Below are positions 37,220 through 58,822 of a DNA stretch of 64,000 bases, one piece after another; the stretch's first letter is position 1, and each line of letters opens with the position of its first letter. Position numbers and translations under genes: made by a program. The notes under the pieces were generated by a model. It did no database searches. It was given only the letters and a program-made list of their open reading frames with translations, and was not told the DNA's origin. The DNA comes from Methylomonas paludis (lineage in GTDB: Bacteria; Pseudomonadota; Gammaproteobacteria; Methylococcales; Methylomonadaceae): NCBI RefSeq assembly GCF_018734325.1, contig NZ_CP073754.1, forward strand, positions 930,001-994,000. The letters are read 5' to 3'.

Positions 37220-40200
37220 TTTCTAAACTGCCTGAGCGGCGGTGAACTTTTGCGGAACGCCATCACGGCGACCACTATGTTTCTAAACCGCCTGAGCGGC
37301 GGTGAACGCGATTGAGGGTGGCGCAGTAGATTTGGTTCATTTCTAAACCGCCTGAGCGGCGGTGAACTCGTTAAATCCACCGTTCATTTGGGCGAGATAT
37401 TTCTAAACCGCCTGAGCGGCGGTGAACAGAGACTGAGGTTTTGGATTTGTTGGCCTTGGTTTCTAAACCGCCTGAGCGGCAGTGAACTCATCCGCCAACC
37501 GCTCCGCCATCGCCTCGATTTTCTAAACCGCCTGAGCGGCGGTGAACTAAATATCAATGCGGTAAATTTTGTAACAATTTTTCTAAACCGCCTGAGCGGC
37601 GGTGAACGCCGCCTGACAACACATCGAGCGCATCGTTTTTTTCTAAACCGCCTGAGCGGCGGTGAACCGGCAATTAAGGAGCAAGACATGTTAACCATTT
37701 TTCTAAACCGCCTGAGCGGCGGTGAACCCTTGAGAAAATGAATCCCCAGTGTGCAACCATTTCTAAACCGCCTGAGCGGCGGTGAACCCGCGTGGCTACC
37801 GCGCATCATCCCAGCCAACTTTCTAAACCGCCTGAGCGGCGGTGAACATACCGTTAATGGTCAGTCTGCGGTAACGAGTTTTCTAAACCGCCTGAGCGGC
37901 GGTGAACGAGCAATTAGGCCATTTATGCTGCCGATTGATTTTCTAAACCGCCTGAGCGGCGGTGAACTTAAGAAAGCCGGCTCAATTGGAGAAAAATTAT
38001 TTCTAAACCGCCTGAGCGGCGGTGAACAATGCCTATCAAGTATTGCATGGCATGTATGATTTCTAAACCGCCTGAGCGGCGGTGAACGTGCAGCCGTACA
38101 TGAATGCCAATGACGCAACTTTCTAAACCGCCTGAGCGGCGGTGAACTTAGAGGGTTAATGGCGCCATCAGAGATTATTTTTCTAAACCGCCTGAGCGGC
38201 GGTGAACTCAACATGATGCGCCATTTCCAGAATAGCGAATTTCTAAACCGCCTGAGCGGCGGTGAACATAGCGGCAGCTGCCACGGTAGCGGGATCTGCT
38301 TTCTAAACCGCCTGAGCGGCGGTGAACTCTTCATCCGCGCCTGTATACATTGCTAATGTTTTCTAAACCGCCTGAGCGGCGGTGAACTTGAAATGCCAAG
38401 AACCCGTGAACCCCTAATTTTTCTAAACCGCCTGAGCGGCGGTGAACGATGTGGAGCTGGATTTGCGTGTTCTGTTGGATTTCTAAACCGCCTGAGCGGC
38501 GGTGAACGACAAAATTGCAAGATACGAGCGCGGTGGTGATTTCTAAACCGCCTGAGCGGCGGTGAACCTAACGCAGCGGGGGAAAACGTGCCCACGGTTT
38601 TTCTAAACCGCCTGAGCGGCGGTGAACCCCAAACCACCAAAACATCACATTATCTACCTTTTCTAAACCGCCTGAGCGGCGGTGAACTTTACGTTAATAT
38701 TTTGATATCGAATATCCATTTTCTAAACCGCCTGAGCGGCGGTGAACGCGTGTGAGCTGCTGGACGAGATTGGCCAACATTTCTAAACCGCCTGAGCGGC
38801 GGTGAACCTCTCCCTCCCGTTATTGAGATTCCAGACCGTTTTCTAAACCGCCTGAGCGGCGGTGAACTTGATGACGGATAATGGGTGGATTGCGCTTGAT
38901 TTCTAAACCGCCTGAGCGGCGGTGAACGTTGAGGCGTGTTATATGGCCATTGGTAAACCTTTCTAAACCGCCTGAGCGGCGGTGAACGGGGTGACAGTGC
39001 ACAAACAGGAACTGTGGTTTTTCTAAACCGCCTGAGCGGCGGTGAACATACGAATACGCCTACAATTTGGATTGATGGTTTTCTAAACCGCCTGAGCGGC
39101 GGTGAACTGTTTAATAGCGTGGGAGACATCGTATCTGGTTTTCTAAACCGCCTGAGCGGCGGTGAACTGTCCTACTCAGGTGTCTCGCTTTTTTTAGGTT
39201 TTCTAAACCGCCTGAGCGGCGGTGAACGCTACCCCTGAAGGCCGCCGGTTTGTGCGGCGTTTCTAAACCGCCTGAGCGGCGGTGAACCTACGTATCCGGC
39301 GTTGTTTTTGCTGGATGATTTTCTAAACCGCCTGAGCGGCGGTGAACATTGACGCCGCCCTAATTGTGCCTCTCCCTCCTTTCTAAACCGCCTGAGCGGC
39401 GGTGAACGGCCGGGCCTGGCTTGATCGGCATTTTGACCATTTCTAAACCGCCTGAGCGGCGGTGAACACTATTTGCTAGCGATTGCGTTAGCGCCTGCTT
39501 TTCTAAACCGCCTGAGCGGCGGTGAACAAAAAGAGGATTATAGCCGAACAAATAAATTTTTTCTAAACCGCCTGAGCGGCGGTGAACGTGATGATTGATT
39601 TTTTTTGCGCAGTGAGTTGTTTCTAAACCGCCTGAGCGGCGGTGAACATTATTTATTTGCAAACTGACGCGCCTAAATGTTTCTAAACCGCCTGAGCGGC
39701 GGTGAACACTATTTGCTAGAGATTGCGTTAATGCTTGCTTTTCTAAACCGCCTGAGCGGCGGTGAACATAGCTGATAAACCGTTGTACGACTGCGTCCAT
39801 TTCTAAACCGCCTGAGCGGCGGTGAACGTGCCATTAGGCACAATATTTGCCCCGCTAGCTTTCTAAACCGCCTGAGCGGCGGTGAACTAAATGCCCGGTC
39901 TACCTGGCTCTATTTTACGTTTCTAAACCGCCTGAGCGGCGGTGAACCGATAGCCTATACAGCCAAAATCCAGACTATCATTTCTAAACCGCCTGAGCGG
40001 CGGTGAACCACCTTAACTAGTCAGGATATAACCGATATTGTTTCTAAACCGCCTGAGCGGCGGTGAACCCATTGAATAATCACCGCCTGGACCGTCATTA
40101 TTTCTAAACCGCCTGAGCGGCGGTGAACTTGCTCATTGCCGGTGGGCAAGGGGTTGGCAATTTCTAAACCGCCTGAGCGGCGGTGAACAATACTGCACAA

Positions 40201-42169
40201 AACAAAGAATTTCTCCCAGCGTTTCTAAACCGCCTGAGCGGCGGTGAACTGATCTGCCCGTGGCTGTATGCCGGAGCAGGCTTTCTAAACCGCCTGAGCG
40301 GCGGTGAACGTTTCCGCTGTGCTTGCGTCTATACCTGAGTTTTTCTAAACCGCCTGAGCGGCGGTGAACCTGCGCCGCCGGGAATCGGAGCGGCTCCAGA
40401 ATTTCTAAACCGCCTGAGCGGCGGTGAACCATTGTGCTAATGATCGTCTCGTTGTCGTCTATTTCTAAACCGCCTGAGCGGCGGTGAACGCTATCAGGAC
40501 ATCAATAATATTGACACCATTTTTCTAAACCGCCTGAGCGGCGGTGAACCAATTTCGTAGGTTAATCCCAAACTGAGCGATTTTCTAAACCGCCTGAGCG
40601 GCGGTGAACTGCTCTAGTGTCCTGCATAGCATAATCAATATTTTCTAAACCGCCTGAGCGGCGGTGAACAAATCAAATGACATTAGGTTTTTACTCCCAG
40701 ATTTCTAAACCGCCTGAGCGGCGGTGAACAAAGTAATTTAGGTTCTATTATTCCTAACCAGTTTCTAAACCGCCTGAGCGGCGGTGAACGTCCAACACAT
40801 TTCTCAACCGCGCGATTATTATTTCTAAACCGCCTGAGCGGCGGTGAACTTTGTCGGAATCGCCGCCATGATTTTTTATTTTTTCTAAACCGCCTGAGCG
40901 GCGGTGAACGCGGGTGATGAATCGCAGGTTTTCAACAACGGTTTCTAAACCGCCTGAGCGGCGGTGAACTGATCAGCCACCCACGCGGGAATACTACCAC
41001 CTTTCTAAACCGCCTGAGCGGCGGTGAACCCGGTTCGGGGCTGGGGTCACTGACTGCCACCTTTCTAAACCGCCTGAGCGGCGGTGAACCAAACGCGCCG
41101 GTTTTTGTGTTTGATACTAAATTTCTAAACCGCCTGAGCGGCGGTGAACCCCAGTTATTAGCGCTCAGTCCAGATGTCGATTTTCTAAACCGCCTGAGCG
41201 GCGGTGAACCTTGCAAACTGGCGAAGAATTTTTCAGCAAACTTTCTAAACCGCCTGAGCGGCGGTGAACGATCAGTAATTGCTAGGGCACCATTTAATAA
41301 TTTTCTAAACCGCCTGAGCGGCGGTGAACCATTAAAAATGCTGCTTAATAAAATATAATTTTTTCTAAACCGCCTGAGCGGCGGTGAACACTCAACGAAT
41401 CGGGGTGGCCCGGTTGTTTAATTTCTAAACCGCCTGAGCGGCGGTGAACGTGGTGTTAAAGGCGAGTACGTCCGCGTTTACTTTCTAAACCGCCTGAGCG
41501 GCGGTGAACACTCATTATCTACTCCAGCCCTCAACAGTTATTTTCTAAACCGCCTGAGCGGCGGTGAACTTTCCAACACTGCATTTCTGGCGTGATGGTA
41601 ATTTCTAAACCGCCTGAGCGGCGGTGAACGAAATGGCGCTATTGTACCGATCAATGACACTTTTCTAAACCGCCTGAGCGGCGGTGAACAAGCTACGTCT
41701 GATTGCATTTTTTATAACAACTTTCTAAACCGCCTGAGCGGCGGTGAACTGGCATAGGGCAGTTACTGCCAGGCACAGCGGTTTCTAAACCGCCTGAGCG
41801 GCGGTGAACACTCATTATCTACTCCAACCCTCAACAGTTATTTTCTAAACCGCCTGAGCGGCGGTGAACCTATTGCGCCGGTGTCAATACAGGCGCAAAC
41901 GTTTCTAAACCGCCTGAGCGGCGGTGAACACTATTCAAATTTACAAACGGCTGCTGATTATTTTCTAAACCGCCTGAGCGGCGGTGAACGGCCCGTAGCA
42001 ATTTGAGCCGCATACAAATTATTTCTAAACCGCCTGAGCGGCGGTGAACTCTACGTCATGAATTCGGCCTCGCCGAAATTGTTTCTAAACCGCCTGAGCG
42101 GCGGTGAACATTTCCGGGCAGCCAGCAGATGGCCGGATGACTTTCTAAACCGCCTGAGCGGCGGTGAAC
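37220..42169 (-). CRISPR. Type I-F CRISPR array, 83 repeats and 82 spacers
   Basis: 28-bp repeats (minus strand: GTTCACCGCCGCTCAGG... ending GGCGGTTTAGAAA) at a 60-bp period. Repeats start at 37220-39920 (46), 39981-40161 (4) and 40222-42142 (33). Spacers are 32 nt except two of 33 nt (39948-39980 and 40189-40221). The repeat has a 5-bp stem CCGCC/GGCGG around GCTCA and an 8-nt TTTAGAAA handle, the type I-F layout, so transcription is leftward. The trailer end is 37220, whose repeat carries one change; another change is in the repeat at 37460. ORFs across the array are artefacts of its 60-bp period. Confidence 0.97.
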
Positions 42170-42369: not shown

Positions 42370-42585
42370 TTCAAGCTTACAACTGTTGGAAATTCCGTAG
42401 GCATCGTATTGTCCAAGAAAGTCTTGGATAAACGCCATCTTGCAAAAGGCGATACTGTCTATCTGACTGAATAGCCCGAGGGTTATCGACTAACACCCTA
42501 CAATCCGGAATTTGAAAAGCAAATGATTGAGGCTAGGCAGATTATGAAAAATCGTCGTGCTGTTTTGCATGAGCTGGCAAAATAG
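42370..42585 (+). pseudogene. Decayed AbrB/MazE-type antitoxin gene
   Basis: The frame reads FKLTTVGNSVGIVLSKKVLDKRHLAKGDTVYLTE, then a TAG stop at 42472-42474, then PEGYRLTPYNPEFEKQMIEAR...VLHELAK and the natural stop at 42583-42585. Joined, it is a full AbrB-fold (SpoVT-AbrB) antitoxin of the kind paired with Doc toxins. Besides the nonsense codon, no ATG, GTG or TTG lies at the expected start; the only upstream in-frame start is a TTG at 42271, about 33 codons too far. The last base overlaps the toxin's GTG, so the pair was once translationally coupled. Confidence 0.8.
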
Positions 42586-42974
42586 TGCCTGTCATTTGGG
42601 TTGAAAAATCTGTAATCCTGGCGTTACACGAAGAGCATTTGGCAGAACATGGTGGGGCAAGTGGCATACTTGACCAGAGCATGTTGGAGTCTGCATTGTC
42701 TCAACCAAAAAATAAAATTGCTTACCAATCTACCGATATTGCCGATCTTGCTGCTGCCTATGGCTATAGTATTATCACTAATCATCCTTTTTTTGATGGC
42801 AACAAAAGAACAGCATTTACAACAATGGAGCTGTTCCTGGCTCTAAATGGACAGGAATTGCTGGCCGATGATGCCTCATGCGTTATCACCGTATTAAAAT
42901 TGGCTGAAGGCAGTCAGCCCGAAAATGAATGTGCCAGTTGGATAAGAACCAATATCAAACCGGCTGGTTCTTAA
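42585..42974 (+). CDS. doc: Doc/Fic-fold toxin (death on curing)
   Basis: 129-residue Doc-type toxin. The catalytic Fic/Doc motif NHPFFDGNKRTAF (HxFx[D/N]GNKR) lies near residue 67, and the family N-terminus IWVEKSVILALHEEHLAEHGGASGILDQSMLESAL is intact. Doc phosphorylates EF-Tu and stops translation. The GTG start overlaps the antitoxin's final stop codon (TAGTG). The frame is complete and shows no loss of key residues, although the antitoxin gene before it is broken. It lies on the opposite strand to the CRISPR array and cas genes, between leader and cas6f. Confidence 0.88.
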   Translation: MPVIWVEKSVILALHEEHLAEHGGASGILDQSMLESALSQPKNKIAYQSTDIADLAAAYGYSIITNHPFFDGNKRTAFTTMELFLALNGQELLADDASCVITVLKLAEGSQPENECASWIRTNIKPAGS

Positions 42975-43050: not shown

Positions 43051-43689
43051 TTAAAAATATGGCAGCCAGCCGTTGGTAGTAAGACCCCAACTATTAATGC
43101 GCAAAACTTGCTCAGGTGAGTTAGTGCTTGCCAATTTTTCAACTACCGGAAACGTTACCACATGAGTTTCCCTGGGGATTTTTAAATAGATATAGGACAG
43201 GTGCTGGTTTTTGGGTTTGGGTAGCTCTGTGAGTGACACACTTGCTTCGGCGCTGGCGCGCTTGGTTTCCAAAAAGGCCTGATGGCGTTTCTGATAACTG
43301 GCGCTCTTGGTTTTTTCTTTATGGTGATAACGCCGATAAGCCACCCATGAGCTTGCATTTTCCGGTGCCGGGATAATTTTGCCGGGATCGGCCCGACCTT
43401 CCAGCATCAGGCTGTGCATTAGTTTATGGGTGTTAAGCATCGTCAACAAGGCTTGCGGGCCAAACACCCGCAAGATGGGGCCGGTTGTGCCGTTGCTTAG
43501 GGTGCGGTTTGCCGAGATAGTTGGAGCTTGCCAGCGCGGAAAGGCAATTGCCAGGGGATAACCGCCTGGGGCTTCAGCGCTGCCATGTGCACGGTTGATG
43601 CCGTGCAGTACCGCCAACAACCGTGAGGTGGCATCGCTGATGCCGTCTGGCTCGGCCCCCTGAAACAGCAGGATGTCGGTGTAGTACAT
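43051..43689 (-). CDS. cas6f: Cas6f (Csy4) CRISPR RNA endoribonuclease
   Basis: 212-residue protein at the end of the cas operon. It cuts the array transcript at the repeat hairpin and stays on the crRNA 3' end. The N-terminus (MYYTDILLF...LLAVLHGINRAHG...GGYPLAIAFPRW) and the C-terminal WGLTTNGWLPYF resemble Csy4 (187 residues in Pseudomonas), so ours is about 25 residues longer. The catalytic His cannot be fixed by eye; His29 and His35 are the candidates. It overlaps cas7f by one base. The repeat stem CCGCC/GGCGG is its expected substrate. Confidence 0.88.
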   Translation of the reverse strand: MYYTDILLFQGAEPDGISDATSRLLAVLHGINRAHGSAEAPGGYPLAIAFPRWQAPTISANRTLSNGTTGPILRVFGPQALLTMLNTHKLMHSLMLEGRADPGKIIPAPENASSWVAYRRYHHKEKTKSASYQKRHQAFLETKRASAEASVSLTELPKPKNQHLSYIYLKIPRETHVVTFPVVEKLASTNSPEQVLRINSWGLTTNGWLPYF

Positions 43690-44861
43690 TATTCGTCACC
43701 TTCTACGACATTTTGAGTTTTGGCCTTTTTGCCTTCGCCGCCCAATACACCGCCGCGCACGATTATCGACATAAAGAAATAATCATCGCCGGTCAATTGT
43801 GGGTTTTTTTGCAGGCGTATCAGTTCCTTGTCCAGTTTGTCGATAATGTTGTAAAAATGGCGGGCTTTTTTATTGTCTCTATACACTATGCTTTCGGTGG
43901 TTACCACGCCGTAGGGTTCGGCGGCTATGGCGCGGTTGTCGCCTAAATCGGCATCGTACCAGGTGTCTATGGTGCGGATGGCGTTGCCGATTTTTTGCTC
44001 GTGGAGTATGGCCTGGTATTGATCGGTATTGATGCGGCGTTTGGCCAGAATTTTGCTGATTTCACGGCCTTCGCTATCTTTGTCTTTGTTGGTGGCAAAT
44101 TCCTGGCTGGGGTAGACGGTCGCCCCGCCGCCGATAACGGCTTTGGCGCTTAAATTGACACGTAAACCCTGTTTCCAGGCGTCGGCGCCCTGGGCGCTAA
44201 GCGCGGCGGCAATATGGTCGCGTAATTCTTCAAGCTTGGCGCGTATGCCTGCATCGCCAATGCTGTCGATTTTCAGGCATTCACGTGCAGGGATGCCCAG
44301 GGCATCCACAGTAATACTGACCGTTTGCTTGGTATTGCCGGCTTGATAGCTTAAGTTAATACTCAGCTTGCCGTTGTCAGCCTGGGCCACCTGGCTGCGG
44401 TTGCGCCACAGCCAGCGCCCGTTCACCATGTTCATGACGTAACGTTCCGCCAATAACTGCCACCCACCTTGCTCGGTAAAGTGTTGGTGATAGGGGGTGT
44501 AAGTGGCCATAAAAGCCGGATCGTTGCTCATGCAGGATTGCGCAGTGTTGGCCAAAAAACTGATGTGGCCTTCTACAATTAAGGTATCGTAGCCTATCGG
44601 CAAAGTGGCTTTTTCCACGCTTTGCAAATTAGCGTTACGTGGATTTTTTTCGCTTTTTTCGTCGGCGGATTTGCTTAAATGCGTGTTCAGGGTGGCATCG
44701 TCCAGAAAATTGCTGATGGTGCCGCGCAAGGCTTCCAGCGTGACCAGTACGGGTAGCTTGTCTGTGGGGTTTTCGCTGCGTTCAGCAAAAAAAGCAAAAA
44801 TGCCGGGTTCCAATGAACGGGTGAAAGCCAGGGTGGATGGGTGTTTGTATTTTTCGGTCAT
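43689..44861 (-). CDS. cas7f: Cas7f (Csy3) backbone subunit of the Csy complex
   Basis: 390 residues; six copies of this subunit form the backbone that holds the crRNA guide. The start matches the family (HPSTLAFTRSLEPGIFAFFA), as do GYDTLIVEGHISFLANT, NGRWLWRNR and the C-terminal DDYFFMSIIVRGGVLGGEGKK. It is longer than Pseudomonas Csy3 (342); part of the excess is a charged linker near residues 66-76. Flipping every sixth guide base by Cas7 is a general type I feature and matters for the regulatory RNA at 47617-47685. Confidence 0.92.
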   Translation of the reverse strand: MTEKYKHPSTLAFTRSLEPGIFAFFAERSENPTDKLPVLVTLEALRGTISNFLDDATLNTHLSKSADEKSEKNPRNANLQSVEKATLPIGYDTLIVEGHISFLANTAQSCMSNDPAFMATYTPYHQHFTEQGGWQLLAERYVMNMVNGRWLWRNRSQVAQADNGKLSINLSYQAGNTKQTVSITVDALGIPARECLKIDSIGDAGIRAKLEELRDHIAAALSAQGADAWKQGLRVNLSAKAVIGGGATVYPSQEFATNKDKDSEGREISKILAKRRINTDQYQAILHEQKIGNAIRTIDTWYDADLGDNRAIAAEPYGVVTTESIVYRDNKKARHFYNIIDKLDKELIRLQKNPQLTGDDYFFMSIIVRGGVLGGEGKKAKTQNVVEGDE

Positions 44862-44886
44862 GGTCGGTTCCTGAGTAAATGATTTA

Positions 44887-45810
44887 TTAAAGTTTGGCTT
44901 TTTTGTTTAAATTAACGGCGCAAGCACCATAGATGTGTGTGCTGCGTTCACCTTGCCGCCAGACATAACTACCGTCATTTCTGGGGTTATGATTTTTCCG
45001 CACTGACGCCACGCTGCGGAAACGAATCAGACTAAAAACCGGTTCGGCAAAGGCGTGAAGCAAGTTATCCCGCGCTCCTGAGCGGTGTTTGGCGGCTTCC
45101 AATAATTGATAACCCACTGCCATTGGCCGGTAATAGCCTCGTTCTGGTAGCCATTCAGGCCGTTCTGGTAGGGTCAGCTGCTTTTTACGCTCTTCGGGCG
45201 TTTCATCACCCGCCCAGCGTTGCATGCAGGCGGTGAGAATGGCAAAGCCTTGCGGGCCATCGGTTTGTTGCTGAGCGGCTTCGACTAGACGGCTGGCGTC
45301 TTCAAGCAGGTAAAAATAAGACGGTAAACGTTGTAATGCTTGCGCCAGAGCTGTGTTCTGTCCATCATGTTGAAACTCCTTAATGGTAATATCCCGGTGT
45401 CCGGATAGCGGCTGAATAACGCCGCCCGCTAGGCGCAAGCCGATCAAGGCCTGGCTGATCAGATCAAGCTCTAAAGTATCGCTATAACTGACATCCAGCA
45501 TTAGATAAGCATTTAAACTGGTGCGGCGGTCGTCTATGGTGGGATGTTGTACGCCACGGCTGCTGACATCACTGAGTTGACCGGAACGGTAGCGCACGTA
45601 TTTGGCATGGCCTCGGTGCAACTGGGCTTCGCCGATTACCGGGGCGATGCCGTTTATGCTTATATCTGCGCCCAAACGTAAATTTAACGCGGTTGCCAAT
45701 CCCACCCAGGCGGTAAGTGGTGGTACGGCGCTTAAAAATACCCCATCCGATAAGGCATTAGCTTGGGCGATGCCAAGCTCGCCGATCACTAACATGCAAC
45801 GGCTGCTCAT
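44887..45810 (-). CDS. cas5f: Cas5f (Csy2) subunit of the Csy complex
   Basis: 307 residues; with Cas8f it caps the 5' handle of the crRNA. Family features include the start SSRCMLVIGELGIAQANALSDGVFLSAVPPLTAWVGLATAL, then IGEAQLHRGHAKYVRYRSGQLSD and the C-terminal YGACAVNLNKKAKL. It overlaps cas8f by 4 bp and precedes cas7f by 25 bp, so the four Csy genes form one message. Confidence 0.92.
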   Translation of the reverse strand: MSSRCMLVIGELGIAQANALSDGVFLSAVPPLTAWVGLATALNLRLGADISINGIAPVIGEAQLHRGHAKYVRYRSGQLSDVSSRGVQHPTIDDRRTSLNAYLMLDVSYSDTLELDLISQALIGLRLAGGVIQPLSGHRDITIKEFQHDGQNTALAQALQRLPSYFYLLEDASRLVEAAQQQTDGPQGFAILTACMQRWAGDETPEERKKQLTLPERPEWLPERGYYRPMAVGYQLLEAAKHRSGARDNLLHAFAEPVFSLIRFRSVASVRKNHNPRNDGSYVWRQGERSTHIYGACAVNLNKKAKL

Positions 45811-47222
45811 AAGCTCAACTCCCCCTGTATGGATGCGTTTAGTTGTTGATCAATAATGGCTACTATTTGCTGGTAACGTTCTCCGCCGCCTTTAAAGTCT
45901 TGGTTAATGCCTAACCAGGCTTCTGCTATGTGGATGGCAATAGTTTTGATTTGTGCGCGGTTGGCTGTGCCGCTTACCAACTGGAGATGACGATGGGTTT
46001 TGGTTATGCCGCTAAAAAAGGCCTGGAATTTAAGTGCTTCTGGATGTTGGCTATCCAGCAGGCTTTTAATTAGTAGTACGTCTTCCAGTAATTCATCCAG
46101 CAATTGCCGGATGATATTGGTCAGCCGTTGGGTTAGCTGGTCATTGGTAGGTAAGGTGGAGTGGCTGGCTAATTTGCTGAGGGTTTTGCCTTTCAATGGC
46201 TTGGCATTGATCAAATATTGGGGCTGATGGATCAGACGTATCAACCTGTCCGGCGTATCCCGTCGGACTGGCGGCGGCAGGATTTTAGGATGTTGTTGTT
46301 TACCGGAAAAATCCATTAGTATCGCCGCGATATTACGGGCGTTGGTGCCACCGTATTCGGCGGCTTCGATATTGAATAATGGACGGTTGCCGATCTGATT
46401 TTCTTCGGTATGAACAAGTGCTTCTCTGCGCCATTGTCCCAGCCAGGCCGCCGCCGCCACACTCAGCATGGGCGTAATGCTAATGGTTTGCTCATCGCCT
46501 GTAGTTTTAAACAGTAATTGGGCGTGGAGGGGCGATAACTCGGCGGGTAGTTGGCTTGCTTTACTGTGCCATTGTTTAACTATGATTTCGTCCAGACCAA
46601 TTTGCTGGAGGAAATCAGTTAGCACTGGGTCTTTGTTCAGCAACATGCTGAATACCGATGCCGGTTTGCCGGCGAGATAAAACACAAACTCAAAGAAAAA
46701 CCGGGCGCCGACTAAAGTGGCATCACCTTCAATTGTGCTGGTAGCCAGGCTGGCGGCGCTGGCGGGAATCACAGACAAATCAGGGCAGGGCGTTTTGGCA
46801 AATTTGGGGGCGCCTTCGTTGGCGGGATTGCGCACTTTGGGGATGTGAGTTGCCAGACGAGCTACGGCCTTGTTGAGTAGCGGGGTAATGCGGCTCAGTC
46901 GTATGGCATGCCAATAATCGGGTTGCTGGAGTATGTCTAACCAGTCTGTTACGTTATCGGTCTTGTTAACCAGCGCCAGCGCCAGACTCAAGGCAGTGTT
47001 CAATTCCTGGTTATCATGCAAATGCAATCTATACTGATCTTGTCCGGCAGCCTGAAATAATTGTTTTTGAAAGGTTTTTGCCAGATCTTTTTCCTTGTTG
47101 GCTAGGCCGTGCTGTAGGGCTAGGGTTAAGGCTGCCAGGGTGTTGCCTTGCTGTTGGTATATGGATAGGGCAGGCAAGGCTTTGGGTTGTTCGGATTTGA
47201 GTTTTTTGGATGGGCTTGCCAT
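45807..47222 (-). CDS. cas8f: Cas8f (Csy1) large subunit of the Csy complex
   Basis: 471-residue large subunit of the type I-F complex (434 in Pseudomonas); it recognises the CC PAM and opens the target. The Csy1-type features include IEAAEYGGTNARNIAAILMDF near residue 300 and a helical C-terminal bundle. The ATG is preceded by AGGAGG 8 nt upstream, and by an 11-codon leader ORF whose stop touches it. It is the first gene of the cas8f-cas5f-cas7f-cas6f operon. A promoter is predicted about 70 bp upstream of the start, beside a site that matches a mini-CRISPR guide. Confidence 0.9.
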   Translation of the reverse strand: MASPSKKLKSEQPKALPALSIYQQQGNTLAALTLALQHGLANKEKDLAKTFQKQLFQAAGQDQYRLHLHDNQELNTALSLALALVNKTDNVTDWLDILQQPDYWHAIRLSRITPLLNKAVARLATHIPKVRNPANEGAPKFAKTPCPDLSVIPASAASLATSTIEGDATLVGARFFFEFVFYLAGKPASVFSMLLNKDPVLTDFLQQIGLDEIIVKQWHSKASQLPAELSPLHAQLLFKTTGDEQTISITPMLSVAAAAWLGQWRREALVHTEENQIGNRPLFNIEAAEYGGTNARNIAAILMDFSGKQQHPKILPPPVRRDTPDRLIRLIHQPQYLINAKPLKGKTLSKLASHSTLPTNDQLTQRLTNIIRQLLDELLEDVLLIKSLLDSQHPEALKFQAFFSGITKTHRHLQLVSGTANRAQIKTIAIHIAEAWLGINQDFKGGGERYQQIVAIIDQQLNASIQGELSL

Positions 47223-47258
47223 TTAAACACCTCCTGTCATGCAATTTGGGCTGGTCAT
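47223..47258 (-). CDS. Eleven-codon leader ORF upstream of cas8f
   Basis: ATG at 47258 with AAGGAGT 6 nt before it, encoding MTSPNCMTGGV, then a TAA directly followed by the cas8f ATG. The last codons contain the AGGAGG of cas8f, so translation of the ORF would clear or block that site. It lies below the predicted cas8f promoter. Too short to judge by homology. Confidence 0.45.
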   Translation of the reverse strand: MTSPNCMTGGV

Positions 47259-47291: not shown

Positions 47292-47321
47292 AGCTTAGAA
47301 TATCTGCTAGAAGTAAGTCAA
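47292..47321 (-). promoter_or_regulatory. Predicted promoter of the cas8f-cas5f-cas7f-cas6f operon
   Basis: On the minus strand TTGACT (47321-47316) and TAAGCT (47297-47292), 18 bp apart, lie 70-100 bp upstream of cas8f. The -35 box is strong and the -10 weaker (three of six). The mini-CRISPR target lies 7 bp upstream of the -35 box. Confidence 0.6.
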
Positions 47322-47328
47322 CTATATT

Positions 47329-47344
47329 TAAAACATTAATCTGG
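47329..47344 (-). promoter_or_regulatory. Target site of the mini-CRISPR guide, with CC PAM
   Basis: On the minus strand the site reads CC-AGATTAATGTTTTA. The mini-spacer at 47645-47657 (extended by one base) reads AGATTGATGTTTTA, so 13 of 14 agree and CC is the type I-F PAM. The one mismatch is at position 6 of the guide, a base type I complexes do not pair. The site lies upstream of the -35 box of cas8f. Confidence 0.8.
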
Positions 47345-47426
47345 ATTTTTTATTAGTAAGCTGCGCCTAACTATTAAGCGGATAGGTTTCGCTCTCGCTC
47401 TACCCATCTTATCTTGTTTATTTTTT

Positions 47427-47559
47427 GTAACTATTCAGCGTCCAATTATCACTTTAAAAAACAGGCAGTTGTAGGATGTGCTAAACGCAGTGCAGCGCAT
47501 CATTCGAAGCTAACTACCTATTTAAAAAGGATAATAAAAAATTTACGCTAAATAATTGC
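47427..47559. repeat. 133-bp MITE-like element in the cas8f upstream region
   Basis: Starts GTAACTATTCAGCGTCC and ends CGCTAAATAATTGC, near-complementary termini. A second 133-bp copy lies at 58655-58787 and a 68-bp version at 60896-60963. Inside it a GATGTGC/GCGCATC hairpin (47475-47501) surrounds a 13-nt loop. It separates the cas8f promoter from the mini-CRISPR. Confidence 0.75.
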
Positions 47560-47574
47560 GATTTTTTTAGCATT

Positions 47575-47692
47575 AAAAATCAGACTGAGAGTTACAGTCG
47601 CGCTCTGTTGAACGCGACCGGATACCGCCTGAGCGGCGGTGAGTAAAACATCAATCTTTTCTAAATCGCCTAGGCGGCGCTTCTGCATTTTA
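47575..47692 (-). ncRNA. CreR-like mini-CRISPR: Cas-regulating RNA gene
   Basis: Two degenerate 28-bp I-F repeats (47617-47644 and 47658-47685, each 20 of 28 identical to the array repeat) around a 13-nt spacer (AGATTGATGTTTT on the minus strand). The right copy keeps all 8 nt of the crRNA handle (TTTAGAAA) and a 4-bp stem CGCC/GGCG. The left copy keeps the full CCGCC/GGCGG hairpin and has lost the handle. Thus exactly the parts of a working crRNA remain. A TAAAAT -10-like box lies at 47692-47687 (no good -35). A GACTG/CAGTC stem followed by TGATTTTT (47599-47575) could end the RNA. The guide matches the site at 47329-47342. CreR RNAs that make type I effectors repress their own operon are known from other subtypes; this instance is inferred. 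Confidence 0.78.
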
Positions 47693-47753: not shown

Positions 47754-50700
47754 TTAGTTGGTAGGGCTGCGTGGACAATAACCCAAAGCCCAATGAAAGT
47801 AGTAGGCTGGGTTTTGATAGTAATCGAGATCACAAAATAAGGCCTGATACGCTTCGTAAGCCGGTTGCGGGGTTACGGCAAAATGAGCGCGGACATCATT
47901 GGCCAGAGCATTAAAAAATATCCTCTCCTCAAGCATTTTGGTTTGCTCAGAACTTACCAGTTCAACCGTGCTATTGTCCGGGCAAAGCCTGTCATCACAG
48001 TCCTGCACATAGAATTTTTTAAATAGATTATCCAGATCGGTATAGCAGCAGTAAATGGTAATGGTTTTAGTCAAGCTTTCTCGAAAGCGGTTTAAACAAT
48101 ATTGAGCTTTGGTCAGAGCCAATGCTGGATTGCCCGTGTTTGTTGTTGGCGATAGATAGGCGTTTAGCGATTGTTTGCCAGACTCAGAGTTATCATCATA
48201 ATGATCGCAAAGTTTCTCATAACCATCGAGATGTTCCAGTGTGCCGATGGGGTTTTCATCATAACTATAAGTAGTTTTATCCGGTGCTAACAAGCATAAG
48301 CTGGAATTCAAGCCTTGTTGTTGCCAAAGTTGAATAGGCAAGGCTTGTTTAGCCAAGTCGATACGGTGGGCTTTGCCTTTGCCAAAGTTGATATCCAGAT
48401 TGGGGAAAAATTCCGGTATTTCACTTAAAACTGGTAGGCAGACTAATCTGTCCTTAGTCTCAATCCCAGGTTTCCCCCACAGAAATACATTGTCTAAGCC
48501 AAATGTTTTATATTTGTCAGCATCATACTGTGCTGAAAATGCTCGTAACGGCTGGCTCAGGATTAATATATTAAGTTTATCCCAGGGCTGGGGGCGGTGG
48601 CGGCGTACCCGTCCGGCTGCTTGCACTTCGCCGCGCACTGAGCGCGGTTCTAGAATGGCCCAGTCGTAATCGTGGTCGCGCCCGGTTTCTTGTAAAGTGG
48701 TGGTAACGACTATGATCATTAAGTCCTGTTTGGTCTTGGTTTTAGTTTGGGCCAGTGCGGCCTGTAATTCGGGCAAGTCCTGCCAGTTTGAGTCGTGTTT
48801 GCGATTGTTAAGCTGATTCAGCTTGGCATCCATTAAACCCAGCACCAGACGCGGATGTTTGGCGTGGTAACAGACTACTTGATAGTTGTATGCGTCCTGA
48901 TGGTTTTGGCGTTCTAATAGCCATCGGCTGTAGCGCCAGGCTTGTTTGGCGGTATTAAAGCGGATAAAACCGATGGAAACGTTGATGTTGTCGATTTTCT
49001 GCGCGTTAATTTGGTGGAGTTGGTAACAGCCCTGGAGAATTTCAGCGTAAATTTGGGATTTTAAGTGCCTGGTTTTATCGGTAGCTTGTGCCAGTGGGGT
49101 CAGGCGCAAAATATCCAAATGACGGCGTTGTGCCGTAGCTTGAATTTTTATGCAGGTGCGCTTGACGTAATCATTGTAATGCAACATTAATTTGGCCGGA
49201 ACGTGGGTGTGAAGATCGTGGCATTCAACTTCCAGACCGGGCTGGTTGCCGGCAAAGATCAGTCGGGCGGGAAGCGGGTGGGCTGTGTGGGAGTTAAAGC
49301 TGGGTGCGTCCAGTTTGGCTTTTATGCATAAGCCCCGCCACCAGGCGTCAAACAGGCCTTGTACCACATACGGCCCCATTGTGGCTGACATTAATACCAC
49401 ATGGCGACCAGCCAGCCCAACCATGAAACATAGTTTGCCCAGGGTGATCAGATCTTGGGCGCTGTAGTTGTCTATTTCGTCCAGTATCAGATCGGATGTG
49501 AAGATGCGTAATGCCATTCGCGCATCACCACCGCTGGTGGCGTGGGTGGCTGGAACCAGATGGTCAACGGTACAGGCGACTATTGGGGTTTCCAGCAATT
49601 GCAGGCCGCGTTGGCCTAGCCACTCATGAACAATCTTGAATAAGGCCGGTCGGTCGCGTTTGCCTTGGCAGTCTCCATCTAGGTGGGCGTCCAGGCAATC
49701 CAGCCAGGGCATATTGTCGGGATTGAGGGTGTTAATATCTTTCCCGCCTACGCTGTAGCCGTTTTCGTCATCGGCTGTGGTGTTTTCCTTACCATTTTTG
49801 GATGCCTCGCTGGATTCGCTGGAATTTTGGGTGTCGTCCAAGACTAGGCCTCCCACTAAGGTGACAAAATCTTCTTGGCTAATCAGCGCTTGTTCGCGTA
49901 ATGCAGTTGCAGATTGCAGGGTTAGTGAGCGTAAGCCTAAAGCCAACGTATAACGCAAACGCGGTTCACCCTGTTCATCCTTAGGGCTGATGGCTGCCAG
50001 CAAGCGCACGCCGGCCAAGGTTTTGCCGCTGCCGGTTTCTGCCAGGATGGCGGCAAATACCGGGCGATTTTCCAGGGTGTGTTGAGCGGCTTCAGCGAGT
50101 TTTTGTTGCCAGTAAAAATTGGGGGCTGTAATGGGGATTCGCGCTTGAGACGTTATCTGTAACCCGGCAGAACGGAAATGCCCGGCATTAGCCAGCAGGG
50201 TTTTTAGTTTGCGGGTGAGTTTTTCCACGCGCAGCAAATGTTGGGGGAGGGTGTCGCCCCAGTAGGGTTTTTGCTGTTCCTGATAGGTGTTGGCGTAGGC
50301 TGGCTGGCTGGGTGAGGCTTTGTCTACCGCCAGTTTGCTGGTATTGCATTGAATGCTGGCTAAGTGGTCGGCGGCAATCAGCAGGGGACGGTTGTAATGT
50401 ACGTTTGCCAAAATCCAGTCGCCGGTGTTTGTGGTTAAATCGGCGCGTAAGTCTGGGTATTGCTTGAGTAGTGCGCTGATTTTTTCTGCAATGGCGGCAA
50501 CTTGGGTTTGCCATTTAGGTTCTTGCCAGGGTAGTTGGCTGTTTGCGGCTTGTTGGCTGAGGGTTCGGGTGGCGACTTTGCCGTCTTGCGATGTTGTTTG
50601 ATTGACGTGTGTGCTTTTTTTAGTGGGGTCTTTGGCGCATACTTCAATTTGGTCATTGCCGGCTGGTAAACGGTGATGGCTTAACACCAGCCAGCTTACC

Positions 50701-51347
50701 AGACTAAAAATAGGCGCGGTTGCCAGCCATGTCTTGAGTTGTTTGGGGCTGAGATTGGGAAAGTGTGTGGGTTGGTTTTTGGTTTCAAACAGCAGTTCGC
50801 CCTCCGGCCACAGCGGATCCGCCTTTGCCAGTTCCGTGAGAAAAACCTGATCATCAGGTGGCTGGCTGGCGGCAAAGCGCTGTTGCAGCATCAAAAAGCC
50901 TACCAGATCATGCCGGTATTCTTCATGGTGATATGCGCTTCGCAGTTTGCCCTGAAAGGCCAGTGTGGCTTTGCCGATGTCGTGCAGCAATGCTGCCATG
51001 CGTCGGCATAGATATACCAGTTCTGCATAGGGGCCTAGTGGTTCGGTGCTGTATTCTTTGCGGATGTGCGTGGTGCGAAAGGCATAACGGCCTTGGGAAT
51101 CATAAAAGTCTTTTTGGCCGGCTATCCATTGCAGTTCCAAGCGATTGCGGCTCATGACCCGGTGACAGCTTACAGAGCCGGCTTTACTAACTGTTTTTTT
51201 AATTTCCTGATGCAGATCTTTCAGACCTTCTTCGCTGATGTGCCCGGCCCAGACCCGGCTGCCGATTTGCGGCAGATATTTGGCCAGTACCCGTCGGGTA
51301 CGTTTCCAGGCTTTGCCTTCCGATTCGTTGATTAATACCACTAACAT
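47754..51347 (-). CDS. cas3: Cas2-Cas3 fusion (type I-F helicase-nuclease)
   Basis: 1197 residues. The N-terminal ~95 residues are a Cas2 domain (MLVVLINESEGKAWKRTRRVLAKYLPQIGSRVWAGHISEEGL). An HD nuclease follows (MAALLHDIGKA, residues about 117-127), then a superfamily 2 helicase with Walker A AETGSGKT near 437 and the DExD box LILDEIDNY near 622. Later motifs include VVTTTLQETGRDHDYDW and AGRVRRHRPQ. The Cas2 fusion marks subtype I-F: the protein degrades targets bound by the Csy complex and, with Cas1, takes part in spacer uptake. It starts 2 bp after the cas1 stop. It lies in a separate transcription unit from cas8f, with the regulatory gap between. Confidence 0.95.
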   Translation of the reverse strand: MLVVLINESEGKAWKRTRRVLAKYLPQIGSRVWAGHISEEGLKDLHQEIKKTVSKAGSVSCHRVMSRNRLELQWIAGQKDFYDSQGRYAFRTTHIRKEYSTEPLGPYAELVYLCRRMAALLHDIGKATLAFQGKLRSAYHHEEYRHDLVGFLMLQQRFAASQPPDDQVFLTELAKADPLWPEGELLFETKNQPTHFPNLSPKQLKTWLATAPIFSLVSWLVLSHHRLPAGNDQIEVCAKDPTKKSTHVNQTTSQDGKVATRTLSQQAANSQLPWQEPKWQTQVAAIAEKISALLKQYPDLRADLTTNTGDWILANVHYNRPLLIAADHLASIQCNTSKLAVDKASPSQPAYANTYQEQQKPYWGDTLPQHLLRVEKLTRKLKTLLANAGHFRSAGLQITSQARIPITAPNFYWQQKLAEAAQHTLENRPVFAAILAETGSGKTLAGVRLLAAISPKDEQGEPRLRYTLALGLRSLTLQSATALREQALISQEDFVTLVGGLVLDDTQNSSESSEASKNGKENTTADDENGYSVGGKDINTLNPDNMPWLDCLDAHLDGDCQGKRDRPALFKIVHEWLGQRGLQLLETPIVACTVDHLVPATHATSGGDARMALRIFTSDLILDEIDNYSAQDLITLGKLCFMVGLAGRHVVLMSATMGPYVVQGLFDAWWRGLCIKAKLDAPSFNSHTAHPLPARLIFAGNQPGLEVECHDLHTHVPAKLMLHYNDYVKRTCIKIQATAQRRHLDILRLTPLAQATDKTRHLKSQIYAEILQGCYQLHQINAQKIDNINVSIGFIRFNTAKQAWRYSRWLLERQNHQDAYNYQVVCYHAKHPRLVLGLMDAKLNQLNNRKHDSNWQDLPELQAALAQTKTKTKQDLMIIVVTTTLQETGRDHDYDWAILEPRSVRGEVQAAGRVRRHRPQPWDKLNILILSQPLRAFSAQYDADKYKTFGLDNVFLWGKPGIETKDRLVCLPVLSEIPEFFPNLDINFGKGKAHRIDLAKQALPIQLWQQQGLNSSLCLLAPDKTTYSYDENPIGTLEHLDGYEKLCDHYDDNSESGKQSLNAYLSPTTNTGNPALALTKAQYCLNRFRESLTKTITIYCCYTDLDNLFKKFYVQDCDDRLCPDNSTVELVSSEQTKMLEERIFFNALANDVRAHFAVTPQPAYEAYQALFCDLDYYQNPAYYFHWALGYCPRSPTN

Positions 51348-52246: not shown

Positions 52247-52532
52247 GATTTTAGTGGTTAACCCGGCAATTCCATTGGGCTGAACAGCATAAGGGCTAAT
52301 CAAAAATGCCGCAATTGATATTTAAACAATAAAGCAGTGCCAAATTTTTTAATTTTTGGCATAAATGCCAACCCTAACGGTATCGGATTCGTTGCGGTTC
52401 ATCATCAACCCCTAGTAGTCGACCAATCTTATTTTGACGAATACGGCATATGATGTGCCAAACCCAATAAAACCCATCGCTCGAAGCTAACCACTTATTT
52501 AAAATTGATTTACGGTTATTAAAGCCAGGAAT

Positions 52533-53110
52533 CCGTAGCCTCGATGCAACGCAGTGGAATCGAGGAATTCACCGCGCAGCCTCAATCAAACCAGCGTCAG
52601 CAGACTTCATCAATACCCACCACCGCTTCAACCAAAATCAACTATCAACACAAACACAGCCTCAATCAAAGCGACCCGTAGCCTCGATGCAACGCAGTGG
52701 AATCGAGGAATTCGCCGCGCAACCTAAATCAAACCAGCGTCAGCAGACTTCACCAATACCCACCCCTCTATAACCAAAATCAACTATCAACACAAACACA
52801 GCCTCAATCAAAGCGACCCGTAGCCTCGATGCAACGCAGTGGAATCGAGGAATTCGCAGCACAACCTAAATCAAACCAGCGCCAGCAGACTTCGCCAATG
52901 CCCACCCCTCTATAACCAAAATCAGCTATCAACGCAAACACAGCCTTAATCAAAGCGCCCCGTAGCCTCGATGCAACGCAGTGGAATCGAGGAATTCACC
53001 GCGCAGCCTCAATCAAACCAGCGTCAGCAGACTTCATCAATACCCACCACCGCTTCAACCAAAATCAACTATCAACACAAACATAATCTTAATCAAAGCG
53101 ACCGCCATGT
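52533..53110. repeat. Tandem array of 143-bp units, right of the cas genes
   Basis: Copies start at 52533, 52676, 52818 and 52960 (143, 142 and 142 bp apart) and match the arrays at 24891, 35055 and 36749. A further dispersed repeat (52415-52500, TAGTCGACCAATCTTATTTTG) lies just before. With the copies at 35055-37183 they bracket the CRISPR-cas locus. Confidence 0.9.
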
Positions 53111-53163
53111 AATTTGCCAAACCCAATAAAGCCCATCGCTCGCAGCTCGCCACCCCAACAACC

Positions 53164-58629: not shown

Positions 58630-58654
58630 CTGTCGGGCAAGACTTGCTTTAACT

Positions 58655-58787
58655 GTAATTATTCAACGTCCAAGTGTCCCTTTAAAAACAGCTGGTTGTA
58701 GGATGTGCTAACCGCAGTACAGCGCATCATTCGCAGCCAAGTACGTTTTTTAAAAAAGGCTCATGCAACATGACGCTGAATAATTAC
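58655..58787. repeat. 133-bp MITE-like element
   Basis: Starts GTAATTATTCAACGTCC and ends CGCTGAATAATTAC, which are near-complementary. It is the same length as the copy at 47427-47559 and has the same interior hairpin (GATGTGC ... GCGCATC). It lies between tsf and pyrH. Confidence 0.75.
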
Positions 58788-58822
58788 CTTTAACTTAACA
58801 TTAATAGCGGATACGTTTGATT

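Follow-up and report, generated by a model that had tools for sequence, protein, structure and literature searches.

The type I-F CRISPR-Cas locus in the window, by which we mean the whole stretch of 64,000 nucleotides of Methylomonas paludis DNA analysed here, carries a mini-CRISPR of two degenerate repeats (psiR1 and psiR2) that likely makes a crRNA-like RNA of the CreR type, which would dim the expression of the Csy genes. This conclusion is drawn from sequence comparison. An earlier note on this DNA had described the unit as CreR-like, and the reading gains weight from a genome-unique, CC-flanked match of the guide ahead of cas8f and from the presence of the same anatomy in 27 other I-F loci, which together with the window make up the 28 loci compared below.

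Anatomy of the mini-CRISPR and its locus

Pfam and NCBIfam matches to Cas1f, the fused Cas2-3, Csy2, Csy3 and Csy4 assign the locus to type I-F. Since the NCBIfam scores of Csy2, Csy4 and Cas3f fall under the curated cut-off, this I-F branch is divergent. The Cas8f of the window has no Pfam or NCBIfam match of its own, and three of its 15 homologs (58–62% identity) carry PF09611, which we take to be the Csy1 family. A sequence search for solved relatives of Cas6f returned none. Between the last base of cas2-3 (47754) and the start of cas8f (47222) lies a gap of 531 bp, which holds both the mini-array and its target (Table 1). The family matches and the gap coordinates thus agree with the placement of the mini-CRISPR between cas2-3 and cas8f of a type I-F locus, as had been claimed. 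The stem-loop-plus-handle core of the array repeat is found in 81 perfect copies in the genome, all of them within the main array.

Table 1. Positions of the features discussed, numbered from the first letter of the window
Feature	Coordinates	Strand	Remarks
Main type I-F array	37280-42169	-	81 perfect repeats; repeat reference
cas5f (csy2), cas7f (csy3), cas6f (csy4)	43051-45810	-	Pfam PF09614, PF09615, PF09618
Predicted cas8f (csy1)	45807-47222	-	471 aa, divergent; gene downstream of target
Mini-ORF	47223-47258	-	11 codons, own Shine-Dalgarno-like site; stop overlaps cas8f ATG
Predicted cas8f promoter	47292-47326	-	read by eye and by analogy with relatives
Weak TAAGCT	47292-47297	-	18 nt on from TTGACT
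cas8f -35-like TTGACT	47316-47321	-	7 nt past the 14-nt match
TATAGT	47321-47326	-	alternative cas8f -10
Target	47329-47344	-	PAM CC (47343-47344) and protospacer AGATTAATGTTTTA (47329-47342)
Weak hairpin with T-run	47575-47599	-	predicted 3' end or terminator
Strong second hairpin GGTCGCG..CGCGACT	47596-47619	-	predicted 3' end or terminator
psiR2, second degenerate repeat	47644-47617	-	handle lost
psiR2 stem-loop CCGCCGCTCAGGCGG	47639-47625	-	identical to array stem-loop in every letter
Guide (spacer) AGATTGATGTTTT	47657-47645	-	13 nt
psiR1, first degenerate repeat	47685-47658	-	4-bp stem CGCC/GGCG, G.A closing mismatch
psiR1 5' handle TTTAGAAA	47658-47665	-	intact, 8/8 against array handle
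TAAAAT	47687-47692	-	predicted -10 of mini-array transcript; position common to relatives
cas2-3 (Cas3f)	47754-51347	-	fused, frame intact

Rechecking the letters bore out the contrast described earlier between psiR1, with its full handle and a 4-bp stem, and psiR2, with a perfect hairpin and no handle. Each pseudo-repeat is identical to the main-array repeat at 20 of 28 positions. A defence array has near-identical repeats and spacers of about 32 nt; here the repeats are degenerate and the spacer is of 13 nt. A solitary unit of the Racr type consists of one repeat and no guide; here two pseudo-repeats enclose a guide with a matching target. The layout found is that of CreR, with two repeat-like units around a short spacer, outside the array and within a cas locus.

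The last 13 nt of psiR1, GGCGATTTAGAAA, equal those of the genuine array repeat of the sister locus L015, in all seven of its copies. As the Cas6f of L015 is 67% identical to that of the window, the Cas6f branch of the window probably accepts the G.A-ended GGCGATTTAGAAA, and the G.A closing pair of psiR1 would pose no clear obstacle to processing.

The 118-nt interval (47575–47692) folds better than 200 shuffled versions of itself (z −4.1), mainly owing to one hairpin at psiR2 and another immediately beyond it. Taken by itself, psiR1 shows an unremarkable fold against shuffles (z −1.0), and the best fold of the 73 nt spanning both repeats pairs the repeats with each other (z −1.4). Searched against Rfam, the gap gave no match with an E value of 1 or below. 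The TAAAAT box and the stem with a T-run, both proposed earlier as signals of a short transcript, were upheld in part. TAAAAT stands where a −10-like hexamer is found in 21 of the 28 loci, starting 7 or 8 nt before psiR1, but the promoter scan found no −35 fitting it by consensus. The only promoter-like match of that scan uses a different −10 (47726–47697), with 1.1 matches expected by chance. The stem with its T-run is present (47599–47575), but it is weak, and the terminator scan gave one match against 0.6 expected.

One copy of an interspersed repeat, about 130 nt long, lies at approximately 47410–47580, between mini-array and target, which indicates that the gap between cas8f and cas2-3 tolerates insertions. 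A further copy in the window was found at 58654–58804, with similar stretches at 52449–52509 and 53103–53153, and the genome holds at least 57 further matches, counted with 40 of 126 candidates scored. A 61-nt repeat seemed to link the cas8f gap with the region upstream of cas1. We rejected this link, as it likely consists of just two copies of the interspersed repeat; this is inferred, the cas1 copies lying outside the scored list. Also upstream of cas1, at 52533–53103, a unit of about 143 nt occurs four times in tandem.

The guide and its match upstream of cas8f

The target, CCAGATTAATGTTTTA (47344–47329), which the earlier note does not mention, lies upstream of cas8f, in the same gap and on the same strand as the mini-array. 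When the guide is extended by the first base of psiR2 (AGATTGATGTTTTA), it agrees with the protospacer at 13 of 14 positions, and the sole mismatch is at position 6. In the R-loops of type I systems the base at position 6 is flipped out of the duplex. CC is the PAM of type I-F, and one studied I-F1 system has a laxer PAM (C or CT). A search of the genome (3,673,651 bp) with CCAGATTNATGTTTTA, in which position 6 is left free, returned a single site at up to one mismatch, the one upstream of cas8f, and no second target elsewhere in the genome at that threshold. With up to two mismatches allowed, 0.23 matches are expected in the window and two occur, one being the target and the other the mini-array itself.

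We then compared the match with several chance controls. With position 6 left out of account, 2 of 20,000 shuffled guides reached 13/13 at some CC site in the gap, and none of 79 array spacers scored above 10/13 at the CC sites of the gap. For the window by itself, the chance of a shuffled guide is about 1 in 10,000, a value kept from being lower by the AT-richness of the guide. In the gap, a score of 12–13/13 was attained 51 times by random 14-mers drawn from the window. All 63,411 plus-strand 14-mers outside the gap gave 168 gap matches of 12–13/13; 165 of them fell on two nearby CC sites and the other three on other sites, and the target was struck by none. Since the example 14-mers are words of the array repeat, the two CC sites hit by the 165 lie in psiR2 and not in the target.

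In this region the consensus promoter scan reported neither TTGACT nor TATAGT, and by consensus the cas8f promoter of the window is weak. The guide shows the limited complementarity to a cas promoter region, next to a PAM, that characterizes CreR, the cas8f promoter itself being predicted. A guide aimed at a nearby promoter region is found in CreTA as well, and the target in the window fits this description too. Under CreTA the mini-CRISPR would encode the CreA antitoxin guide, and the targeted promoter would drive a toxic small RNA with the 11-codon mini-ORF, which indeed follows the target. The tested I-F CreTA of Acinetobacter, as far as the available part of its description goes (PMC10097628), resembles the window in its place in the cas3-csy1 gap, in a divergent psiR1 and a better conserved psiR2, in the CC PAM, in the mismatch at position 6 (mismatches there are at guide positions 6, 11 and 18) and in having a mini-ORF, which in Acinetobacter is of 33 bp with a Shine-Dalgarno motif. 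The same text describes a guide gene divergent from the toxin and a guide of 20 nt, whereas the window has a tandem arrangement, a 13-nt guide and a mini-ORF overlapping the start of cas8f. Because of this overlap, the transcript of the mini-ORF would also reach cas8f. Moreover, L009/L122 has a similar mini-ORF, of 10 codons, at the same place before cas8f and no mini-array, and in L050 there is no ATG between the predicted −10 and the ORF in the position of cas8f. We therefore consider CreTA unlikely here and prefer CreR; the mini-ORF is predicted to be a leader for translational coupling.

Related type I-F loci in the Methylococcales

Csy3 (PF09615) was detected in 76 of 311 Methylococcales genomes, the window's own counted. 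We scanned 81 loci (80 relatives and the window), 74 of them with 3,000 nt or more of sequence upstream of csy3, looking for a repeat that retains its handle and, 8 to 45 nt further on, a second one that retains its stem. Such a mini-array was found in 28 loci, the window among them, and an equal length of mirrored sequence (1,049,456 nt) gave no match. Together with the rechecked coordinates, this control sustains the earlier description of two degenerate repeats at 47617–47644 and 47658–47685 around a 13-nt spacer. Of the 74 loci that extend far enough upstream, 46 gave no mini-array in the strict scan; L051, L073 and L087, which came from a looser scan, fail its criteria and were excluded from the counts. 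The 27 relatives with a mini-array come from 26 genomes and 15 genera, but they are related to one another and several share guide words, so that they do not amount to 27 independent events. A comparison of this gap in related I-F loci, which the earlier note had suggested as a check, came out in its favour, as handle, hairpin and guide-target layout recur in these 27. The mini-array is divergent from cas8f in all 27 relatives and in tandem with it in the window alone.

In the nearest relative with the gap covered, L122/L009 (57% identity in Cas8f), there is no mini-array, and the sequence of L015 ends inside cas8f. Consequently, no sister copy shows selection on the guide of the window. Searches with the Cas8f of the window found one relative in the genome contigs and two strong relatives among 201 genomes of the family; among 369 genomes of the class and 398 of the phylum they found, beyond the window's own, only fragments with E near 4e-4. 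The protein database contains 15 homologs, for which genomic context is absent. These few relatives and context-free homologs block a deeper sampling of the window's own branch. Genome G172 carries both I-F branches, a standard locus with a mini-array (L070) and a locus of the window's branch without one (L122).

Over the 28 loci, positions 1–5 of psiR1 agree with the repeat at 37 of 140 bases, which is the chance level, and its handle at 220 of 224. Conversely, the stem arms of psiR2 agree at 273 of 280 bases and its last five handle bases at 50 of 140. The scan thresholds favour the psiR1 handle and the psiR2 stem, so this contrast is partly built in, while the other parts were free to vary. 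The psiR1 stem has five of five pairs in 23 loci and four of five in the other five. Several standard pair types occur at four of its five positions, as in a compensated stem; pair 1 is broken in four loci including the window, and a different pair is broken in L092. Freedom of the first five bases of psiR1 would follow from a transcript starting near the stem, which the position of the −10-like hexamer fits. Terminator-like sites lie within 100 nt after the psiR2 stem in 12 of the 28 loci, compared with 21 of 560 control windows.

The asymmetric decay that had been noticed in the window, sparing the parts of a mature crRNA, is thus seen as the same contrast across the family. Degenerate repeats, at 20/28 each, are also what a functionless, decaying fragment of a CRISPR array would show. 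However, decay here is mostly confined to parts that are unused in a mature crRNA, the guide matches the adjacent upstream region of cas8f with a PAM present, the layout recurs in 27 other loci, and the spacer lengths step by about 6 nt, with 32 nt in just one of 28. A decaying fragment is therefore highly improbable.

To compare guides and targets across the loci, we took as target the CC-flanked site within 700 nt that had the highest simple identity over the leading 14 nt. Scores were 11–14 of 14 for this best site and 7–11 for the second-best, and the best site was always on the guide's own strand. When the PAM was not required, the best nearby match was preceded by CC in 25 of 28 loci. 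Mismatches were absent at positions 1–5 (0/140), frequent at position 6 (18/28) and at position 12 (14/28), and frequent again at position 18 (18/26), with 9/140 at positions 7–11 and 23/133 at positions 13–17. Positions 6, 12 and 18 pooled are mismatched in 50 of 82 cases, against 0 of 140 at positions 1–5. The guides are 13, 14, 19–21, 24–27 or 32 nt long, and 24 of the 28 lengths fall on or one below 14, 20, 26 or 32 (L+4 mod 6 = 0 or 5). A spacer length rule of L = 6N−4, arising from Cas7f packing, is given in the available part of a study of I-F complexes (PMC7296934). The guide of the window, the shortest in the 28 loci, is one below the 14-nt step of this rule. Judging from the letters, the spacing of the mismatches and the steps in length fit selection for R-loops of the Csy complex. 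A pattern in which every sixth base is free is not expected of an antisense RNA or of a chance DNA repeat.

In 17 of the 27 relatives a −35-like TTGA starts 2–4 nt from the edge of the protospacer, in 14 with a TAnnnT 17 nt on, which would place the complex directly next to the predicted cas8f promoter; in 10 of the 27 the TTGA box beside the target is absent. The protospacer of L050 overlaps the mini-array's own −10-like TATAAT, so that the RNA might repress its own transcription along with that of cas8f. Leaders of more than 100 nt from the targeted promoter to the gene were observed in L077 and L079, and also in L047 and L092; those of L077 and L079 contain inverted repeats, found by eye, and possibly an attenuator or an extra small gene.

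Proposed autorepression and known systems

In the mechanism that we propose, the mini-array would be transcribed from the TAAAAT box and cleaved by Cas6f after both stems. A short Csy complex with about three Cas7f would assemble on the RNA and be guided to the match upstream of cas8f, occluding the promoter. Cleavage by Cas2-3 would be avoided, the R-loop being too short, and repression would lift once the complex is taken up by array crRNAs or anti-CRISPRs. According to the part of the study available (PMC7296934), I-F complexes with spacers shortened to as little as 14 nt assemble and form R-loops but do not license Cas2/3. Self-targeting by such a complex would therefore stay safe. In the same text, 14 nt is the shortest tested I-F spacer that assembled, and its complex showed weak target binding in vitro and failed to restrain phage in vivo. 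Since the guide of the window, with 13 nt, is below this length, repression here could be slight. One reading is that a repressor which binds weakly and is readily displaced would serve well in sensing free complex.

The shortness of the guide raises the alternative that the unit is a relic, a once-active regulator now idle, with its guide shortened and separated from the target by the interspersed repeat. Of the 28 guides that of the window is the shortest, a complex with 14 nt binds weakly in the portion of the work cited (PMC7296934), a repeat has been inserted between mini-array and target, and no sister copy shows selection. On the other hand, PAM, handle and psiR2 hairpin are all intact, as is the guide-target match at every position but 6, and a guide RNA acts in trans, so that its distance to the target should be irrelevant. 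We regard a relic as rather improbable, and return to the CreR-type autorepressor.

Shmakov et al., in a 2023 NAR paper, reportedly described mini-arrays whose spacers are partly complementary to cas promoters, above all that of cas8, and are said to have tested an I-F1 mini-array that acts as a regulatory guide. CreR (Liu et al. 2023, Cell Host Microbe) has been described for types I-B, I-E and V-A, as represented in the available passages of PMC12737573 and PMC13131331. In these accounts it shares with the window a mini-CRISPR within the cas locus, a guide partly complementary to a cas promoter, and autorepression, predicted here, that is released by crRNA competition or anti-CRISPRs. The window differs in its type, I-F, and in its 13-nt guide. 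Racr, the solitary repeat units of phages, likewise mimic a repeat that engages Cas6f and Cas7f; they are phage-borne and their RNA has no 5' handle in the portion of the source at hand (PMC10651486), whereas the unit in the window, situated in a host cas locus, has both a handle and a guide, with a target in a promoter region.

No description of the Methylococcales case was found among the literature matches listed, a search outside which the main CreR and standalone-repeat papers fell. Within the available parts of these sources, mini-CRISPRs that regulate cas genes (I-B, I-E and V-A) are already known, as is a CreTA of type I-F in the corresponding gap in Acinetobacter; new here are the divergent I-F branch, the tandem layout and the minimal guide. 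The divergent branch may have built its autorepressor independently of the one common in the order, being in tandem with cas8f, with the hairpin of its own array copied and the shortest guide, at the lower Csy limit; with the 27 other copies it would record R-loop geometry. We offer this last reading tentatively, as a possibility somewhat short of probable.

If the autorepression is true, many I-F systems of the order carry a guide that reports the load of Csy complexes and resets cas8f expression, and such systems would be self-limiting and able to answer an attack by anti-CRISPRs. The 28 natural guide-target pairs suggest, without experiment, which bases of the R-loop are selected and which are free. 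With its 13 nt, the guide of the window would then mark the smallest length at which an I-F guide is useful in nature.

Beside the mini-array, the main array contains two spacers, five repeats apart at 41482–41869, that differ by one base and both begin with ACTCATTATCTACTCCA, and which were duplicated or acquired twice. A gene of the Fic/Doc family (PF02661) lies at 42585–42974 (+), between the CRISPR array and cas6f and on the strand opposite to them.
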